From contig NZ_SSMQ01000049.1 in NCBI RefSeq assembly GCF_005144585.1, positions 1 through 64,000 of the forward strand: a DNA stretch of 64,000 nucleotides, written 5' to 3'. The notes beneath the pieces are model-generated. The model searched no databases and was not told the origin of the DNA. It saw only the letters and a program-made list of their open reading frames with translations. Source of the DNA: Polyangium fumosum (GTDB lineage Bacteria; Myxococcota_A; Polyangia; Polyangiales; Polyangiaceae). Shown piece by piece: positions 29,097 to 63,404 of this stretch. Both the position numbers and the translations under genes were made by a program. Positions within the stretch are counted from its first letter, which is position 1; each line of letters starts with the position of its first letter.

Positions 29097-29219
29097 GCCA
29101 GGGGATCGACGCGACCGCACAGGGCTTGCGACCTGCCGCGGGGTGGGGCTCGGCGGTGCTCGCCGATGGGTCGACCTGCGCGCATGCGGGTTGCCTGGGT
29201 CAGGCGGAGGTGGTCGACC

Positions 29220-29565
29220 CTGCTCGAAGGGGTGGTGGGAGGGTGTTCGGGCAGGGTGGGACCTGCTCAAAGGGGTGGTGGGAGGGTGTTCGAGGAGGGT
29301 CGAGGCAGCCGGGGAGAGGCTCGGGGTGGGTGTTGGAGGATGATGGGACCTGCTCGAAGGGGTGGTGGGAGGGTGTTCGAGCAGGCGGGGACCTGCTCGA
29401 AGGGGTGGTGGGAGGGTGTTGGAGGAGGGTAGGACCCGCTCGAAGGGGTGGTGGGACGGTCTTCGAGGAGGGTTGAGGAAGCGGGAGAGAGGCTCGGGAG
29501 GGTGTTGGAGGAGGGTAGGACCTGCTCGAAGGGGTCGTGGGAGGGTGTTCGAGCAGGGTTGAGGA
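29220..29565. repeat. G-rich hairpin array, 43-nt period, about 8 units
   Basis: Copies begin at 29220, 29263, 29350, 29393, 29437 and 29522; the two gaps of 85-87 nt each contain a degenerate extra unit. In the best units (29350, 29522) CTGCTCGAA and TTCGAGCAG form a 9-bp stem around a loop with four G-runs (GGGGTGGTGGGAGGG), able in principle to form a G-quadruplex. The 43-nt period is not a multiple of three, so it is not a protein repeat. It fills the space between the convergent envC-like and TPR genes. The remaining sequence at 29097-29219 shows nothing else. Confidence 0.8.
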
Positions 29566-54722: not shown

Positions 54723-55025
54723 CTAACGAGGCAGCGGCGACAGATCCGGCGGGGGGGTCTCGCCGAGCAACGCGTCGAGCTTTCCGTTTTGATCGAGCGC
54801 GGCCACGTCCGTAAATCCGCCCACGGGGCGGCTGTTGATGAACACCTGCGGCACCGTGCGCTGGCCCGTGGCCTCCGAGAGCCAGCGGCGGAGGTCGGGC
54901 CGTGTGTCGACGTCGATTTCCTCGAAGCGTACGTTCTTCCGAGAAAGCAAGGCTTTCGCGCGCTGGCAGTAGGGGCACCAAGGGGTCGTGTAGACGGCGA
55001 CGTCGGCTGGCATGATGCTGGACAT
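54723..55025 (-). CDS. grxC: Glutaredoxin
   Basis: This 100-aa dithiol glutaredoxin has the active site TPWCPYCQRAK, the TVPQVFI cis-Pro loop and GGFTD glutathione-binding motif. ATG 55025 or the ATG at 55013 could start translation; the longer frame upstream is not supported. It reduces protein disulfides with glutathione. The 259-bp gap to the divergent NACHT-like kinase holds presumed promoters for both; no motif stands out. Confidence 0.92.
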   Translation of the reverse strand: MSSIMPADVAVYTTPWCPYCQRAKALLSRKNVRFEEIDVDTRPDLRRWLSEATGQRTVPQVFINSRPVGGFTDVAALDQNGKLDALLGETPPPDLSPLPR

Positions 55026-55284
55026 TTCGGTTCTACCAGCGACGAGCGCAAGGGGTGGATGCGTGCTCGGTCGGTTGGTGGACGGATGGAGGGGGTGGGG
55101 GGACGAGGGGTCGCTGGGGGAAGCGAGGGGGCGGCGGGCCGGTGGTTGTGTGAGCAACGCAGGGGCTCGACGACCTCGTTCGTGTCGCTTCACCTGGCAA
55201 GGTCGAGGGCATCTTTGGCGGCGACGAGCTTGTCCGTGGTGCGGACCCCCAGTACGTCTGGGCCTCGGAGCACAGAGAGGTGTC

Positions 55285-57342
55285 ATGAAGCCGCCGATGT
55301 TCCAGCTAGAAACGGACGGAGATCCGCAGGAGGCCGTGGCGCAGGTCTACCGTGCCGCGGGCTTCGAGGTCGAGCGGCGCGTCGGCGATGCGCCTGGCAC
55401 GGTCGAATGGTTTGCTTCTTCCACGGGGTTTCCCCGCGTGCGCACCTACTTCCGGGTCTTGCCGAAGGTCCCCGAGGACCTCGCACGTGAACTCGCGGAA
55501 CTCACCGCCATTTGCCAGGTCACCGCTTCCGACCGCGCGATCGGGATCGTGCTGGAGGGCGAGTTGCCCGAGGGCTACGAGCCCAACCTCGCCACGGCGA
55601 CGTCCGCGGCCCTGATCACCATCCGGCAATGGGTGCTGGAGGTCACGGGTATCGCAACCAAAGCGAGAGAGCTCGTCCGTACGATGGACGCGGCTGCGGC
55701 AGGCCTCTACTTCCCCCGGAGAGCGCGGCTCGCATCGGGCGAGGAGGTGGACGCGGATGTGTTCATCGCTCGCTGGGCAGACGAGTCGGTCGACTCCACA
55801 CTCATCGTTGTCGGACCAGGGAAGAGGACGACGGTGTCCCATGCCGCATGGAGCCTCGCTCGTCGGTTCGAGGAGCGGCCGGACGTCGTGACTCCGCCCA
55901 TCATGTCGTACGCGGGTGAACGGTCTTTTCACCTGCCCAGCGTCGTGGTCGTGGCGGACGCCAGGCATTACGACCGCCCACCGCCCACGCGTAGCCTGCT
56001 GTATTGGAGCGATCGTAGCGACAAGACCCTGCTCACGGCGCCTGGCATCGTCGTGCTGCGGTTGCTACCGCCCCGCGCAGACGAGATCGAGCGTTGGTTC
56101 GAGCGGCATCTCGAACCACGCCCGTCCTTCGATCGCTTCCTCGCGGCGCGCAGGACCAGCAAGGACTTCGCTGATCTCTCGAATGTCCTCGGAAACCTCG
56201 TGCTCCTGCGGGACACGATCCGTGCCCTGCCGACCCCTGCCTCCGATGCGACGCCCATCGAGGCATGGATCGTCGTGGTGGCCGCTGCTCATGTCGGCCA
56301 GGTGGCGTCGACCGTATCGCAGGATTGGGGTCGTGACCGCGCCAGCGCCTCCGATCTCGAGGATCTCGCCCTGGAGCAGTTTGCGATCGGCAAAGCAGCG
56401 TCCCGAAGGTTCCTGCTTCCTTGGGAATCCTATGGCTGGTTGGACCGGGAAGGCGAGCTCTTCTCCAACCAGCTCGTCATGCACTTCTTCCTCGCCCGGA
56501 AGATCGTCCGCGAGGTCCGCGCTGGTCACGACGACGTGCTCCTTCGGTACCAGTTCCCTCGGGAGGTCTTTCTCTTCCTGACCGTCATCGCACCGGACGT
56601 CGCCGCACGGCTCACGGACAGCGCCGTCGCCGGCATGGAGCAGCGGATCCGCGAGGAGGCCGAGCGCATCGCGCAGCTCGGGTTCGCGCATCGGCTCAAT
56701 CGTCCGGTCGGCGCGATGCGCCAGCACCTCGGCGAGATCCGTGACGCGCTCGACAAGGAGCAACGAGCATCGCTCGCGCGTCCCTTCGCCAGACTCGAAG
56801 AGGAGATCGACTACATCGAGCGGCTCACCGAAAAGACACGTATCTGGGAGGCAGGGCCCACGGGCACCAAGGCGAACGTCGTGCTCCGTCCGCTCGTCGA
56901 GGACGAACTCGCGCCCCTCACACGACGCTACACGGAGGTCGATACGCTCGTCGAGGTCCCGAGCGAGCTCCACGTCGAGGCGATCTCCGACGCGCTCCAC
57001 GAGACGCTGCACTGCCTCCTCGAAAACGCCTTTCACGCGGTCCTGTGCAGCACGCGGGCGACGGTTCGAAGGATCGTGGTCTCGGGGAGTCGCACGGGCG
57101 ACGTGATCCGCCTGGAGATCCGCGACAGCGGCGACGGCGTGAACTCCGGCGACCGCGATCGCATCTTCGAACCGTTCAACACGAACAAGACGGGCGGCGC
57201 CGGCAAGCCTCGCGGCACGGGCCTCGGTCTTGCGATCGCCAAGCGCTTCGTGGAAAGGATGGGGGGCCGGATCGGCCTAGATCCTGCGCACGAGGAGACC
57301 TGCTTCTTCATCGAGCTGGTCGCGGGCAAGGAGGACGGATGA
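55285..57342 (+). CDS. Degenerate REase-like / NACHT-like / histidine kinase fusion
   Basis: This 685-aa soluble protein starts at ATG 55285 after GAGAGG. Residues 10-95 look like a decayed Mrr-type nuclease fold without the catalytic Glu-x-Lys. Residues 155-430 follow the STAND/NACHT pattern: RWADESVDSTLIVVGPGK in place of the P-loop (Walker A is broken), LRLLPPRADEIERWF, LSNVLGNLVLLRD, then a winged-helix-like block ending FSNQLVMHFFLARKIVREV. Residues 455-520 are a DHp helix with phosphoacceptor His469 (AHRLNRPVG). The ATPase has LLENAFHAVL, EIRDSGDGV and GTGLGLAIAKR. It overlaps the response-regulator nuclease by ATGA. The NACHT and nuclease assignments are inference; the kinase is certain. 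Confidence 0.85.
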   Translation: MKPPMFQLETDGDPQEAVAQVYRAAGFEVERRVGDAPGTVEWFASSTGFPRVRTYFRVLPKVPEDLARELAELTAICQVTASDRAIGIVLEGELPEGYEPNLATATSAALITIRQWVLEVTGIATKARELVRTMDAAAAGLYFPRRARLASGEEVDADVFIARWADESVDSTLIVVGPGKRTTVSHAAWSLARRFEERPDVVTPPIMSYAGERSFHLPSVVVVADARHYDRPPPTRSLLYWSDRSDKTLLTAPGIVVLRLLPPRADEIERWFERHLEPRPSFDRFLAARRTSKDFADLSNVLGNLVLLRDTIRALPTPASDATPIEAWIVVVAAAHVGQVASTVSQDWGRDRASASDLEDLALEQFAIGKAASRRFLLPWESYGWLDREGELFSNQLVMHFFLARKIVREVRAGHDDVLLRYQFPREVFLFLTVIAPDVAARLTDSAVAGMEQRIREEAERIAQLGFAHRLNRPVGAMRQHLGEIRDALDKEQRASLARPFARLEEEIDYIERLTEKTRIWEAGPTGTKANVVLRPLVEDELAPLTRRYTEVDTLVEVPSELHVEAISDALHETLHCLLENAFHAVLCSTRATVRRIVVSGSRTGDVIRLEIRDSGDGVNSGDRDRIFEPFNTNKTGGAGKPRGTGLGLAIAKRFVERMGGRIGLDPAHEETCFFIELVAGKEDG

Positions 57343-58313
57343 GTGACGCTGCGAAGCGGATCCTGCTCGTCGAGGACGACGATCAGAACGCGGAAGACTA
57401 CACGGACTGGCTGAAGACCGCCGGCTACGAGGTCGAGCGCGCCCGCGCCGCCGAGGACGGCCTCACGCTCGCCGAATCGTTCCGCCCGGACGTCGTCGTC
57501 CTCGACCTCCAGATCCCTTCTCAGCCGGGGCGGACCGACGAGGACACGCGGTTCGGGCTCGCCACGCTCGAAGGGCTCATCCACGCCGATCCGTTCCGGC
57601 CCGTCGTGATCGCCACCGCGCACAAGAACAACCCCGAGCTCATGCGCGAGATCATGCAGCGCACGCGGGGCGGTCAGTTCCTCTTCAAGAGCGAGCGCGA
57701 TCTGAAGGGCGCTTTGCTCCGCTCGGTCGTGCTCGCACTCGCGAGCCCTGTCTACGTCGGGAGCCGCGCGGTTCGCGCGTTCGAGGCCCTCGTCGAAAAG
57801 AACGAGAAGGAGGACAAGTACCGCGACTTCTTGAAGAAGAACTGGCGCATCCTGCTCGGCCCGAAATATCGCGACTGCCGCTCCCCACACGAGGTCGGTC
57901 GCGGCGCCGAGGTCGATCTGCTCTTCGTCCGGCATGACGGCTTTCCGGACCTCTGGGAGCTGAAGCGCCCCGATCAGCCGGTGTTCAAGGCGTACAACAA
58001 CGGTCGCCTCCACCAGAGCGAGGAGTGCTCCCGCGCGGTCGGTCAGGTCATCGAGTACCTCGATCTGGCCGAGAAGCAGCCCTCCGGTCCGAACAGCTAC
58101 GAGGTGCAGCGCGGGATCCGCGTCGACCTCAACCGACCGCGCGGATACGTGGTCATCGGCCGGCGCAAGGACGAGCGCGAGCGCGACCGCCTCGCCTTGG
58201 AAAACAGCTTCCTCGCCGGGATCACCATCCTCACGTACGACGACCTGCTCGAAGGCGCGCGGGAGGTGCTGACCTTCCTGCGCGACTACAGAAACGGGGA
58301 CGCAGGGACCTGA
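57339..58313 (+). CDS. Response regulator with Shedu-type (DUF4263) nuclease output
   Basis: This 324-aa protein starts at ATG 57339 behind GGAGG. Residues 5-135 are a receiver domain: acidic Glu12/Asp13, phosphoacceptor Asp56 (VVVLDLQIP), Thr93 and Lys117. Residues 155-315 match Shedu/DUF4263: FLKKNWRILLG, a PD-(D/E)XK core with Asp193 and Glu207-x-Lys209 (DLWELKRP), Gln236 in AVGQVIEYLD, then RGYVVIGRRKDERERDRL and ILTYDDLLEGA. Shedu proteins are anti-phage nucleases; here phosphorylation of the receiver would be the natural switch. No DNA-binding output domain is present. It is coupled to the upstream kinase. Confidence 0.87.
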   Translation: MSDAAKRILLVEDDDQNAEDYTDWLKTAGYEVERARAAEDGLTLAESFRPDVVVLDLQIPSQPGRTDEDTRFGLATLEGLIHADPFRPVVIATAHKNNPELMREIMQRTRGGQFLFKSERDLKGALLRSVVLALASPVYVGSRAVRAFEALVEKNEKEDKYRDFLKKNWRILLGPKYRDCRSPHEVGRGAEVDLLFVRHDGFPDLWELKRPDQPVFKAYNNGRLHQSEECSRAVGQVIEYLDLAEKQPSGPNSYEVQRGIRVDLNRPRGYVVIGRRKDERERDRLALENSFLAGITILTYDDLLEGAREVLTFLRDYRNGDAGT

Positions 58314-58334
58314 CGAGGCCGGGGATGTGCGCGA

Positions 58335-58726
58335 GGGCTCGGCGAAGCGCCAAGCGAGGGTCGGACGAGGTCAGGTGGCGAAAGGCGAAGCGCCAAGCAC
58401 GGGGGAGCAGAGCCAAGCGGGGGCTCGGCGAATCGCCACGGACCGTTCCTTCGCGCCAGGGTCGTGCTTGGCGAAGCGCCAAGGAGAGGTCGGGAGGGCC
58501 GGTCGCCGGGATGGCGACGCGCCAAGGAGAGGTCGGAACAGGTCGAACGGTGCTTGGCGCAGCGCCAAGGAGGCGTCAGAGAACTCCGGGGTGCGCTTGG
58601 CGCAGCGCCGAAGAAACGTCCGAGGACGCCCGGGTGCGCTTGGCGCAGCGCCAGGGAGGCGCGAGGGCTCCCGAGGGTTGCTTGGCGATGCGCCGAGCGC
58701 CTCCGAGGGGGCTCGGGGATGTCAGG
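58335..58726. repeat. Palindromic array, 43-nt period, 9 units
   Basis: The core GGCGNNGCGCC begins at 58341, 58384, 58427, 58470, 58513, 58556, 58599, 58642 and 58684: seven intervals of exactly 43 nt and one of 42. The best copies read GCTTGGCGCAGCGCCAAGG, a short hairpin; the other ~24 nt of each unit vary but share AGG-rich sequence. A 43-nt period shifts reading frame each unit, so it is not coding. It fills most of the gap between the REC-Shedu gene and the AAA ATPase gene. It superficially resembles CRISPR but its repeat is too short and its spacers are related. Confidence 0.88.
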
Positions 58727-58804
58727 ACCGAGCGACGGCGGCGCCTATCCAGACCATGACGGGATCCGCTACCCTGCGACCGCCCTTTGGGGGAAGGGGA
58801 AGCC

Positions 58805-60040
58805 ATGGGCGAATACCAGGACGACGAGCTGAGTGCGGACAGCGAAGACGAGGTCGGGATGCTCACGGACGTTCCCCTGCCTCGCATCGAGCGCATCGAG
58901 ATCAGCGGGTATCGACCGTTCTCGACGTTCGTTGCTTCTCCGGGTCCGCTCACCGTGCTCATCGGCGCGAATGCGTCGGGCAAGTCGAGCCTCTTCGATG
59001 CGCTGCGGCTCCTCACGTATGCCGCGCAAAGCCCACTGCCGCCGGAAATCGATCCGCGACTCGGCACTTCGGCGGCCTTGTTCCACGCAGGGGGGCCCCC
59101 TCGAATCGATCTCGGGATCCGCACGCAGCTCGCGGGGCGATCGCTGCGTTACGAGGTGAGCGTGGAGGGACCCGTGGGGACACCACGGATCGCGAGGGAG
59201 CTTCTCGCCACGGCGCCGACGGATCCCGAGGCGAAGCCCCACGCATTCCTCGACTTTCACTACGGCACGGGTCGCGTCGCCGCGAGCGAGGATGCCGTCC
59301 GAACGCCGCAGTGGACGATGTCCCCGAACGAGCTCGCCCTTCGCCGCGCCTTGTTCCCGGATCTCGACGTTCCTGCGAAGTTCCAGGGGTTCGTTTCGTC
59401 GTGGCGGTTCTACGGAGACATCGACGTCTCGCCCGGGGCGGCGACGCGGCGACCTGCGTACGTCGATGAATTCGCGGTGCCAGCCGAGGACGGGGGGAAC
59501 CTCAGCGCCGTGCTGAGTTCGCTGTTCCTCGAGCATCCCGACGCGTGGGGCGAACTCGAAACAGCGCTTCGATCTGCCATCCCCGGCTTTGAATCCATCA
59601 CGGTAAAGCCCCGCGGCGCCAAGGGGATGGTCATCGGCGTGTGGCGTGAGCGCGGTGTGAAAGACGAGCTCACGCTGGTCGATCTGTCCGACGGGACGCT
59701 GCGATTGCTCTGGTGGCTCGCGCTCGCGTTCTCACCGAAGCTGCCGCCCGTCGTGTGCATCGACGAGCCCGAACTCGGGCTACATCCGCGTGTGCTGCCC
59801 ATCCTGGCGGGCGCGTTCAAGCTGGCATCGGCGCGCTCGCAGCTCCTCATCGCCACACACTCGCCGCACTTCCTCTCGCAGTTCGAGCTCGAAGACATCG
59901 CGGTCATGCGCAAGGAGGACGGGCGCGCGAGGTTCGTGCGTCCTGCGACGAGCGATGCGCTTCGGCGCGAGGTCGCGGAGATCGGGGGCGAGGCGATCGC
60001 CAAGCTGTTCCTGAGCGAGGAGCTCGAGGTCCTGCCGTGA
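58805..60040 (+). CDS. AAA_21-type (OLD-like) ABC-fold ATPase
   Basis: This 411-aa protein starts at ATG 58805 with AAGGGGAAG upstream; TTG 58787 is rejected. An acidic N-terminal 25 residues precede the ATPase: Walker A GANASGKSS (54-62), an ABC-signature-like LSDGTLRLL near 295, Walker B VVCIDEPELGLHP (316-328) and an H-loop ATHSP near 351. This is the AAA_21/AAA_15 class found in OLD, PARIS-type and retron-linked anti-phage systems. The GTGA overlap with the DUF4276 gene fixes the pair. Defence is inferred from family and context. Confidence 0.88.
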   Translation: MGEYQDDELSADSEDEVGMLTDVPLPRIERIEISGYRPFSTFVASPGPLTVLIGANASGKSSLFDALRLLTYAAQSPLPPEIDPRLGTSAALFHAGGPPRIDLGIRTQLAGRSLRYEVSVEGPVGTPRIARELLATAPTDPEAKPHAFLDFHYGTGRVAASEDAVRTPQWTMSPNELALRRALFPDLDVPAKFQGFVSSWRFYGDIDVSPGAATRRPAYVDEFAVPAEDGGNLSAVLSSLFLEHPDAWGELETALRSAIPGFESITVKPRGAKGMVIGVWRERGVKDELTLVDLSDGTLRLLWWLALAFSPKLPPVVCIDEPELGLHPRVLPILAGAFKLASARSQLLIATHSPHFLSQFELEDIAVMRKEDGRARFVRPATSDALRREVAEIGGEAIAKLFLSEELEVLP

Positions 60041-60705
60041 AGGTCATCGTCTACGTCGAAGGTCCTTCCGACAAGAGCGCCCTCGAAGCACTTCTCAAGC
60101 CGATCATCGAGGAGGGTAGACGCAACGGAAGAGGGATCAGCTTCTCTCCCCAGGGCGGCAAGGCACAGATCCTCAACGATGTTCCCAGGAAGGCAGCCGA
60201 ACACCTGAAGCAGCACCCCCAAGATTGGGTCTTCGTGCTGCCTGACCTCTACCCGATGGCGTATTACGACGGTGGCCCAAACGAGCACCGCTCGTTCCCC
60301 GCGTTGCGGCAGCTTTTACAGGACAAGTTCAAGAGGTGGGCAGATAAATTCGGTCTGTCCGTGGAGACCCTCGACCACTTTCGTGTGCACTGCCTGAAGC
60401 ATGATCTGGAGGCGTTGTTGCTCGCGGCGCCGGATGCACTTCGCGCCCGGCTCAAGACGAAGGACAAGCTTCATGGGCACTGGCGGATGCCCGTCGAGGA
60501 CCAGAACGACAACAAGCCCCCCAAACGTGTGGTCGAGGCGCTCTTCGAGAAATATCGGGAGAAGCCCAAGTACATCGACACGATCGACGCCGTCTGGATC
60601 CTCGGCCGTGCCGTGTTCTCCGACGTCGAATCCGCCTGTCCGCAGAACTTCGCCCCCCTCGTCCGGGAGCTGCGGAGCATCGCGGCGGATGGCGCCCTCC
60701 CGTGA
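60037..60705 (+). CDS. DUF4276 TOPRIM-like protein
   Basis: This 222-aa protein starts at GTG 60037, inside the stop of the ATPase gene. The N-terminal VIVYVEGPSDKSALEALL provides the conserved glutamate of TOPRIM-like folds, and VFVLPDLYPM the acidic DLYP motif typical of DUF4276. His/Asp residues in HCLKHDLEALLL follow. TOPRIM nucleases paired with AAA ATPases cut nucleic acid in OLD-type defence; by analogy this is the effector. A complete active site cannot be confirmed by eye. Confidence 0.8.
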   Translation: MKVIVYVEGPSDKSALEALLKPIIEEGRRNGRGISFSPQGGKAQILNDVPRKAAEHLKQHPQDWVFVLPDLYPMAYYDGGPNEHRSFPALRQLLQDKFKRWADKFGLSVETLDHFRVHCLKHDLEALLLAAPDALRARLKTKDKLHGHWRMPVEDQNDNKPPKRVVEALFEKYREKPKYIDTIDAVWILGRAVFSDVESACPQNFAPLVRELRSIAADGALP

Positions 60706-60770
60706 CCCGACCTAGAAGCACGACGCGCCGTCCCTTGCGCGCGCGGTTCACCTGGTGAGAAAAAGGACCC

Positions 60771-63404
60771 ATGGCCGACACCGAGGGCACAATCCACCTC
60801 GAACGCTTCACGAACGACGCGAGGCAAATCGTCGCGGGCGCGCAGGCGCTCGCCGACGACCGGAAGCACGCCGAGGTCTCGCCGCTGCACCTGCTCGTGC
60901 GTTTGCTCGAACGGGATCGCGGCGTCCTCGAGGTCTTCCGGCGCGCCGGCGCCGACCCGAACGAGACGATGAACCTCGCGGAGGCGGCCCTCCGGCGTCA
61001 GCCGAAATCGACGGGCGGCGTCTCGTACGTGGACGCCCGGCTGCTCGATCTGCTCGGGCGGGCCGAGCGCGAGGCGACGCGGGACAAGTTGCCGAATGTC
61101 GGCATCGAGCACCTCCTGCACGCGCTGGCGCAGGAGATCCGCGGGCCGGCGGGGGAGATCCTCTCGTCGTTCGGCATCAGCCCGGGCGCGTTCCGCCCGC
61201 ACCTCGGCGCGCTCGCGGAGGGCGAAGCGAAGTCGCCGGCCCCGCGGGATTCGAGCGCGGCGGTCGTCACGAGCGCAGCGGGGAGCACCGAGGCGAACGG
61301 CTACACGCGGGACCTCGTGGCCGACGCGCGCAAGGGCCTCTTCGATCCGGTGATCGGTCGTGACGGGGAGGCGCGGCGGTTGCTCCAGATCCTGGAGCGC
61401 CGTTTCAAGAACCATCCGCTCGTCGTGGGGGAGCCGGGCGTCGGCAAGTCGGCGTTGATCCGCGGGCTCGCCGATCGCATCGCGCGTGGCGACGTGCCGT
61501 CGAACCTCGCGGGCGCGCGCCTCTACGAGCTCGACACGGGCGCGCTCGTCGCGGGCGCGAAGCTGCGCGGCGAGATCGAGCAGCGCCTCAAGGCCCTCAT
61601 CGACAAGCTGCGCAGCGTGCAGGACGCCGAGACCATCCTCGTCGTCGAGGACATCGACGCGCTCTTCGGCCAGGGCGTGCAGGGCTCGGGTGTCGGTGAT
61701 CTCCTGAAGCCGCTGCTCGCGCGGAGCGAGATCCGCATTCTCGCGACCACCACGACCGAGGGCATCCGCAAGCTGAACGAGCGGGATGCTTCGATCCTGC
61801 GGCGCTTCGCGGTGGTGAACATGGAGCCGCCGTCGATCGAACAGGCGACCGAGATCCTGCGCGGCGTCGCCACGAAGTACGAGGCGCACCACCGCGTGCG
61901 CATCGGCGAGAGCGCGATCCTCTCGGCCGTGAGCCTCGCCAAGCGTTACCTCTCGGATCGCGCGCTGCCGGACACGGCGGTGGATCTCCTCGACGAGACC
62001 AGCGCGCGCAAACGCGTCGAGGTCGACGGCGTGCCCGCGGAGGTCGACGCGCTGAGCCGCCGCGTTGATGCGCTGAAGGCGCAGATCGCGGCGCTCGCGG
62101 ACGACGAGGATCGGCTGAGCGTGCAGGCGCGGCAGCGGCTGGAGAAGGAGCTCGGCGAGGTCGAGCCGCGCGCGAAGGAGATGCGGACGAACATCGCGGC
62201 GCGGCGTGGGGTCGTCGCGGCCGTGCAGTCGATCCGCAAGGAGTTCGCGGCGGCGAACGAGGCCCTCGCGACGGCGCAACGCGAGAAGAACTACGCGCGG
62301 ATCGGCGAGATCGAGCACGTGACCTTGCCCGAGATCCGTCGACGTCTGGAGACGGCCGAGGGGGCCGCGAAGCGCGAGGGCGCCGAGAGCGGCGCGAACA
62401 TGGTCACGGAGAACGACGTGGCCGGCACGCTCGCCGAGTGGACGGGCATCCCGGTCGCGAAGATGCTCGAAGGCGAGTCGGAGAAGCTGCTCAAGATGGA
62501 AGAGCGGCTCGCGCGCCGCGTGGTCGGTCAGGACGAGGCCGTGCGCGCGATCGCCCGCGCCGTGCGCCGCGGCCGCGTGGGCCTGCGCGATCCGGGCAAG
62601 CCCATCGGCTCGTTCCTCTTCCTCGGGCCGAGCGGTGTCGGCAAGACCGAGCTCGCCAAGGCCCTCGCCGAGTTCTTGTTCGACGACGAGCAGGCGCTCA
62701 CGCGGCTCGACATGAGCGAGTTCATGGAGCGGCACATGGCGCAGCGCCTCATCGGCGCGCCGCCCGGCTACGCCGACAGCGAGCAAGGCGGCTTCTTGAC
62801 CGAGGCGGCGCGGCGCAGGCCCTACAGCGTCCTGCTCTTCGACGAGGTCGAGAAGGCGCACGCGGACGTGTTCAACCTGCTCCTCCAGATCCTCGACGAC
62901 GGCCGCCTGACCGACGGTCGTGGCAGGACGGCGGATTTTTCGAACACGGTCGTGATCATGACCTCGAACATCGGTTCGAAGCGGATCCTGGAGACCGACG
63001 CGAAGCTCTTCGGCACCGAGGACGGGCGTGACGCGATTCGCGACGTGCTCTTCGAGGAGCTGAAGAACTTCTTCCGGCCGGAGTTCTTGAATCGAATCGA
63101 CGACATCGTCGTGTTCAAGGCCCTGACGAAGCAGGATCTGCGCGGCGTCGTCGACATCCAGCTCCGGCGGCTCGAGCGGCTCCTGGCGGATCGAGAGATC
63201 AAGGTGCAGCTCGACGACGCGGCGAAGGACCTGCTCGTCGACATCGGCTACGAGCCCTCGCTCGGCGCGCGCCCGCTGAAGCGCGCCATCCTGAAAGAGC
63301 TGCAAAACCCGCTCGCCGAGGCGATCCTCGCAGGCGGCTACAGCCCCGGACAGGTCGTGCACGTCCGCGGCGCCGACGGTTCGTTCTCCTTCACCAAGGT
63401 CTGA
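60771..63404 (+). CDS. ClpA/ClpB-type AAA+ chaperone
   Basis: This 877-aa protein has a Clp N-domain (1-145) and nucleotide-binding domain 1 with [11 protein letters not shown] and [11 protein letters not shown] middle region follows, about 90 residues of coiled coil and shorter than typical ClpB. Domain 2 has [31 protein letters not shown] and arginine-finger region RPEFLNRID, then a C-terminal D2-small domain. It has no obvious ClpP-binding IGF/IGL loop, so disaggregation (ClpB-like) is more likely than proteolysis. ATG 60771 follows AAGGA. It unfolds aggregated proteins with ATP. Confidence 0.9.

Follow-up and report, generated by a model that had tools for sequence, protein, structure and literature searches.

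In the analysed window, the whole stretch of 64,000 nucleotides of Polyangium fumosum DNA, an intergenic tandem array of nine near-palindromic cores is located upstream of clpB. The array lies between a gene for a REC-Shedu protein and an AAA_21/DUF4276 gene pair (Table 1). These neighbours had been named in the preliminary description, and Pfam and PADLOC gave the same genes (SduA match, E 8e-163; HEC-01 matches, E 4e-52 and 5e-9), while PADLOC gave no match for the HATPase protein of the window. At 55297-58313 the HATPase gene is followed by REC-Shedu, representing a receiver-domain Shedu protein that adjoins a kinase-like gene. This arrangement is common to the window's genome (G000, 12.98 Mb) and G004, one of the five other Polyangium genomes compared (G001-G005), and REC-Shedu is also present at the clpB locus of G005.

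Table 1. Positions of the two arrays, the nine cores and the neighbouring genes in the window
Feature	Position	Strand	Core start, TTGGCG register	Description
Second 43-base array	29219..29559	+		Other unit, CCTGCTCGAAGGGGTGGTGGGAGGGTGTTCGAGCAGGGTGGGA, about 8 copies; Tandem Repeats Finder
Glutaredoxin-like ORF	54723..55286	-		Identity by eye from sequence
REC-Shedu gene	57339..58313	+		Pfam REC-SduA_C; PADLOC SduA
Array	58337..58722	+		386 bp; nine units, each counted from 4 bases before its own GGCG
Core 1	58341..58351	+	58339	GGCGAAGCGCC
Core 2	58384..58394	+	58382	GGCGAAGCGCC
Core 3, deviant	58427..58437	+	58425	GGCGAATCGCC
Core 4	58470..58480	+	58468	GGCGAAGCGCC
Core 5	58513..58523	+	58511	GGCGACGCGCC
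Core 6	58556..58566	+	58554	GGCGCAGCGCC
Core 7	58599..58609	+	58597	GGCGCAGCGCC
Core 8	58642..58652	+	58640	GGCGCAGCGCC
Core 9	58684..58694	+	58682	GGCGATGCGCC; preceded by the lone 42-base step
AAA_21/DUF4276 pair (HEC-01-like)	58805..60705	+		Pfam; PADLOC HEC-01
clpB	60771..63404	+		Pfam ClpB; next gene downstream of the array in G004 and G001 as well

The regular register of the nine cores, reported in the preliminary description, was confirmed. The steps between the GGCGNNGCGCC-type cores are 43 bases seven times and then 42, and the self-identity of 58311-58740 is 0.57 at lag 43 and 0.53 at lag 86, the next best lag reaching 0.37. Allowing at most two mismatches, TTGGCGNNGCGCCAA has 17 matches on both strands of the window, 15 of them inside the array, while 100 dinucleotide shuffles gave 4.73 matches on average and 11 at most. 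The exact GGCGNNGCGCC is present in eight of the nine cores, the exception being core 3, in which T replaces the last central G. The palindrome is imperfect (GGCG-NNN-CGCC, the third central base being a mostly conserved G), and the consensus strand of the array reads GCTTGGCGNNGCGCCAAG followed by a G-rich spacer. ORFs cross the array, yet 43 is no coding period. The clpB-locus arrays of G004 and G001 have their lone 42-base step at the same place.

The gene order at clpB differs among the six Polyangium genomes. In G000 it is the glutaredoxin-like gene, HATPase, REC-Shedu, the array, AAA_21, DUF4276 and clpB; G004 has this order without AAA_21 and DUF4276; and in G001 the array stands between the glutaredoxin-like counterpart and clpB, with no Shedu beside it. 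G005 has Shedu, another gene and clpB, without an array in between, and in G002 and G003 the glutaredoxin-like gene and clpB were found without an array. The array is dispensable in G002, G003 and G005, in which the stretches examined show none upstream of clpB. The AAA_21/DUF4276 pair is upstream of clpB in G000 only, the presence or absence of modules in the sister species referring to the stretches examined at this locus. ClpB identity to G000 is 92 percent in G001, the most distant genome, and 96-97 percent in the others (97 percent in G004). Because six of the nine units of the distant G001 array best match the G000 unit of the same index, the array is probably old at the clpB locus and was later lost in some species, with the modules differing between close relatives.

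We detected exact core pairs, with a spacing of 28-58 bases allowed, in all six Polyangium genomes and in none of 33 relatives of other genera (39 genomes in total). A scan of named genomes gave 31 matching stretches, of which 14 came from Polyangium sp. 6x1, 15x6 and y55x31, with all pairs at step 43, and 17 from other organisms, none with pairs at step 43 as judged by match length. Twenty-four arrays of this GGCG family were collected (five from G000, three from G004, two from G001 and 14 from named records; several are mutual counterparts), after one of 25 array rows, G001_C17b, was left out as a duplicate of another array. They have seven units in one case, eight in six, nine in twelve and ten in five, numbers possibly off by one since end units were added on a liberal score. 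Their 189 steps are 43 bases in 165 cases, 42 in 20 and 44 in 4. For each of the five G000 arrays, one or more other species have a counterpart that adjoins the same gene or genes. At clpB the arrays of G000, G004 and G001 have nine units and 386 bp each, and at the C190 locus there are 8-10 units (eight in the G002 counterpart) and lengths of 386, 386, 387, 387 and 428, one of the two values of 387 being that of G001, taken after a poorly scoring first unit of G001_C17a was left out. The array of nine cores belongs to a class of intergenic DNA elements spread through the genus, occurring in all six Polyangium genomes examined. At another locus (L031:7778-8172) and in its G004 and G001 counterparts, 11-12 bases separate the end of the array from the predicted start codon of a conserved gene of 458 aa, which has an AAA_16 match below the Pfam cut-off, and any promoter of this gene lies inside or beyond the array.

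The comparison of G000 with G001 at clpB gave core differences at 2/72 positions and differences in the rest at 107/314 over all units. The G001 locus was found by the core pattern, and the corrected count, omitting the four units that matched it, is 2/40 for the core and 57/175 for the rest (p=1.5e-4). Over 12 array pairs, with all units included and the pattern bias uncorrected, the core differs by 0-12 percent and the rest by 12-39 percent; in the other pairs core differences range, likewise uncorrected, from 0/72 to 10/80, the least favourable pair (other loci) having 107/348 in the rest. A count by column over 71 unit pairs from eight locus pairs, with those below 0.5 identity left out, gave differences of 0-7 percent for the eight core columns, 10 percent for the third central base, 8 percent for the first base of the unit and 27-46 percent for the flanking TT and AA. 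Gaps are also rare, 11 per 951 substitutions in ten array pairs versus 23 per 690 in 21 promoter-flank pairs (p=0.004; same aligner, the pairs sharing species and not being independent). The core and the step look protected by selection at the clpB locus, and the core GGCGNNGCGCC appears to be kept by purifying selection, the spacer changing much more freely. Slippage copies without core conservation, an outcome allowed for in the preliminary description, are not what is seen here, and pure slippage at this locus was rejected by the constant length together with the conserved core. Matching of units by index is also clear for the first four of ten units between G000 and G004 at C11 and for the end units at C190, and is weak at C167 and C183 (diagonal 0.57-0.69, off-diagonal 0.57-0.62).

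Selection on hairpin and spacing had been proposed for the array in the preliminary description; selection on the core and the spacing is borne out by the clpB counts and the equal lengths, and a hairpin as such is less likely. Among 213 units, 35 deviate from the core, and their 53 changed pairs comprise 1 compensated, 14 G-T and 38 broken pairs. A-C pairs, the mirror of G-T, number seven among the changed core pairs, so that one strand is mildly favoured. Beside the core, the first two pairs (3-15 and 2-16) have no covariation, and the third has a slight one (89 versus 76 expected, p 0.01), which would fit a stem. As the core pairs are uncompensated, sequence recognition, probably of DNA, fits better than an RNA hairpin.

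Arrays of other units have the same step. The second array of the window lies between convergent M23 peptidase and TPR genes; it is present in G004 and was not found at that place in G001, G002, G003 and G005. In 784 kb of G000, taken regardless of arrays except for the window, which was chosen for the finding, 12 intergenic segments had a best lag with z>6: 43 in six, 130 in one, 42 in two and 21 in three, with none elsewhere. Two of the six 43-lag segments are halves of one array according to a second detector, which adds weaker intergenic arrays at 24, 27, 41 and 85. The segments at 21 and 42 may include coding repeats overlooked by the gene caller, a custom codon-score caller, and all G000 arrays called coding have a period divisible by three. 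Only segments with z>6 were used because triplet periods, which probably come from overlooked genes, dominated the correlogram of all intergenic DNA. About six distinct arrays at 43 or 130 are present in the 784 kb. Outside the window, 720 kb contain four of them, each in contig C167 or C11, and the 400 kb of C111 contain none; a rough extrapolation from this uneven sample gives perhaps 70-100 arrays per genome. Contig C111 has three arrays with 21- or 42-base steps, half of or near 43 (L157:15215-15648, L160:16093-16514 and L167:4842-5304), called non-coding and possibly coding.

In 340 kb of G004 the four segments with z>6 are at 15, 21, 43 and 86, and the second detector adds 64 and others. 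In two further genomes of the Polyangium family, G023 and G024, no lag-43 array was detected in 220 and 160 kb, respectively; G023 has lags 65 and 85-86. Steps of 64 and 65, about 1.5 x 43, were observed in the intergenic arrays L115:6783-7166 (G004) and L135:16669-17024 (G023). The genome G036, from another family of the order, has 18 segments with z>6, at 41 (four), 42 (two), 15 (two) and once each at 20, 21, 22, 36, 60, 66, 82, 91, 102 and 129, so its step preference leans to 41-42 and is less pure than that of Polyangium. By eye, two to three unit sequences follow one another in a single intergenic array of G036 (L147:4523-5090), all at a 41-base step.

Unlike units share the 43 step in the Polyangium genomes. 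Two other units, searched over the genus with 28-58 bases allowed, gave steps solely of 43-44 (22 matches in three of six genomes and 35 matches in two of six), and a third gave three matches in one genome, also at 43-44. The first two of these units are related to each other, and the link of the GGCG family to them is weak. As to one ancestor for all unit families, B and D are joined by intermediates and related, B and C are weakly related (p 0.020), and family E is linked solely to E. Between the GGCG family and the other Polyangium units, only A_generic with D_3129 was below p<0.03 (p 0.010, from many comparisons and uncorrected). A palindrome in every family was considered and rejected, as only 8 of 24 consensus units were significant at p<0.05 (2/5 in the GGCG family); the palindrome excess over 19 arrays outside the GGCG family has a combined p of 2e-4, and the eight of G036 alone 0.016.

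Two further genes have upstream arrays at the same place in G000, G001, G003, G004 and G005, with best lags of 43, 86, or 88 with 43 second (G005, at one locus); in G002, with a contig end at that locus, the lag is 44. At the first locus (L041) neighbouring units are up to 0.81-0.95 alike within species and, ungapped, 0.38-0.53 between species; at the second the contrast is weaker, with 0.65-0.74 inside each of four species, 1.0 inside G005 and 0.45-0.67 from one species to another. The greater likeness within species suggests that arrays can homogenise within a species with the step and the position kept, and slippage-like turnover fits some other loci better than the clpB locus.

We give an even chance to the interpretation that the array is a row of tandem sites for a sequence-specific DNA-binding protein, spaced about four helical turns apart. 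In this proposal an array would consist of 7-10 copies of a unit with the step held at 43 bp, each with the core GGCGNNGCGCC and a freer spacer, and each near-dyad core would be one candidate protein site. Since 43 bp is about four helical turns, the sites would be on the same face of the helix and the bound proteins could touch their neighbours. Because many arrays adjoin gene starts, the likeliest effect would be on promoter activity or local chromosome architecture; some arrays are flanked by convergent genes, which makes a promoter role there unlikely. No sigma-70-type site was detected by a promoter scan of 58200-60800; promoters at other loci were identified by eye. A binding protein, its cooperativity and any effect on transcription are inferred. 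Tandem sites would account for the conserved core, the freer spacer, the rigid step and the limited number of units, and a conserved candidate core at constrained spacing is what is found in a tandem operator array. Tandem sites alone leave the common step of the families with other cores to related proteins, common descent or fixed-step copying, as the cores of these families differ and could not all be recognised by one protein. Also against this interpretation are the species that lack the array upstream of clpB, the small share of consensus units with a significant palindrome, the least favourable core count of 10/80 and the slight covariation of the third outer pair.

Several other explanations have been weighed. 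If the array were transcribed, its row of hairpins could be processed, stabilise the message or bind a protein, and such a structured RNA agrees with folding better than shuffles on both strands (z -5.1 and -5.7), with four arrays that end 11-14 bases before a predicted co-oriented start codon and with the excess of G-T over A-C pairs. The z-scores are uninformative, however, being strong on both strands as for any palindromic array, and the core pairs are uncompensated. The orientation is also not fixed, since 16 of the 23 arrays with a downstream gene call have that gene co-oriented (24 arrays in all, each counterpart counted by itself). Rfam gave no array match at threshold in the window stretch (best over the array E 0.12, 20.8 bits, the gathering score being 81) and none at seven other loci, where the sole match was a tRNA-Sec and not an array. 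We consider a structured RNA improbable. Much less credit is due to the proposal that the array belongs to an anti-phage system, serving Shedu or the AAA/DUF4276 pair as a non-coding RNA or an operator. The array adjoins both modules in G000 and Shedu in G004, and the preliminary description had noted its place between them; array and modules are nevertheless found apart at the same locus in sister species, the array without Shedu in G001 and Shedu without an array up to clpB in G005, and a defence RNA or operator was rejected by this presence and absence in six species. Other arrays of the kind occur at intergenic sites with no link to defence genes, a result that the preliminary description had itself named as contrary: the flanking proteins include cytochrome b, P450, M23 peptidase, a hybrid kinase and an FG-GAP protein, many are without a family, and none of six tested had a PADLOC match. 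An anti-phage role is close to negligible, and the adjoining defence genes appear to be there by coincidence. An insertion or recombination site that draws incoming modules would explain why at clpB one module is to the left of the array (G000 and G004) and another to the right (G000 only). We regard it as quite improbable: in G005 Shedu is at the clpB locus with no array between Shedu and clpB, the neighbours at other loci are diverse or without a family, and neither the array in phage and plasmid collections nor the pattern in viral contigs had a match.

Two further explanations deserve more weight than these, each of them still rather unlikely in our estimate. The array may be a neutral minisatellite in which descent and copying have spread a 43-bp unit and whole-unit unequal exchange keeps the period, with no protein reading it. 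The L041 units, which are alike within species and differ between species, with unit numbers that differ by eye, are consistent with such an origin, as are the families B and D grading into each other and the three of nine clpB units (G000-G001) that best match off their own index, as partial homogenisation would give. The clpB array argues against it, since core bases there change 6-12 times less than the rest, the length is equal in three species and most units best match at their own index; in addition, all 24 arrays of the GGCG family have 7-10 units. The other explanation, no less doubtful, is a lineage-specific ruler, in which a machine whose fixed footprint is near four helical turns, and not the sequence, would determine the step. 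It would cover Polyangium units that are unrelated or nearly so and step by 43 (also by 86 and 130, and by 42 and 21) and the 41-42 of the other family, with the step held even where the unit itself turns over. The machine would be either an oligomerising DNA-binding protein family by which the arrays are kept, or a copying process that produces them.

Should a protein read these arrays, large-genome myxobacteria would have in them a multi-site regulatory or architectural element of a new kind. Should the step be set by a mechanism, they would offer a testable ruler for tandem duplication. The class is of interest as one whose step stays while the sequence changes, with strong core conservation at the clpB locus. 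Genes beside such an array should not be read as one functional unit with it.

The arrays were also compared with known systems. The repeats are not of the CRISPR type, as constancy is limited to the 11-base core and the spacer follows a consensus of its own, and no Cas protein was detected among the five window neighbours scanned with Pfam. Type III toxin-antitoxin RNA repeats (ToxI; PMC8860590) are tandem too; here no toxin family is among the scanned array neighbours, and Pfam gave no type III toxin for the neighbours, on one or both sides, of the window's two arrays and ten others, many of these neighbours having no family. In repeat size the two kinds are similar. The CarH operators of myxobacteria are, according to PMC9304148, tandem protein sites at promoters with cooperative stepwise binding; they comprise three or four repeats, and where there are three the footprints cover about 34-38 bp. 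The present arrays would share with them tandem protein sites at promoters and cooperative binding, and differ from them in that each array has 7-10 candidate sites with a spacing of 43 bp and that a genome has arrays at several loci. REP and BIME elements are dispersed intergenic palindromes that also occur clustered; the arrays are likewise dispersed and palindromic, but they have a fixed register, another sequence and a stem almost without compensatory change. No description of such arrays in these bacteria was found among the open-licence papers listed. Tandem repeats in bacteria are usually treated as unstable, neutral markers. VNTR or MIRU-type minisatellites are head-to-tail intergenic repeats of tens of bases at many loci. 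The head-to-tail arrangement is common to both. The unit number, compared between species, is not variable at clpB in the three species that have the array (absent in three others) and is 8-10 at C190, and the arrays further differ in their conserved core columns and in one period for several units.
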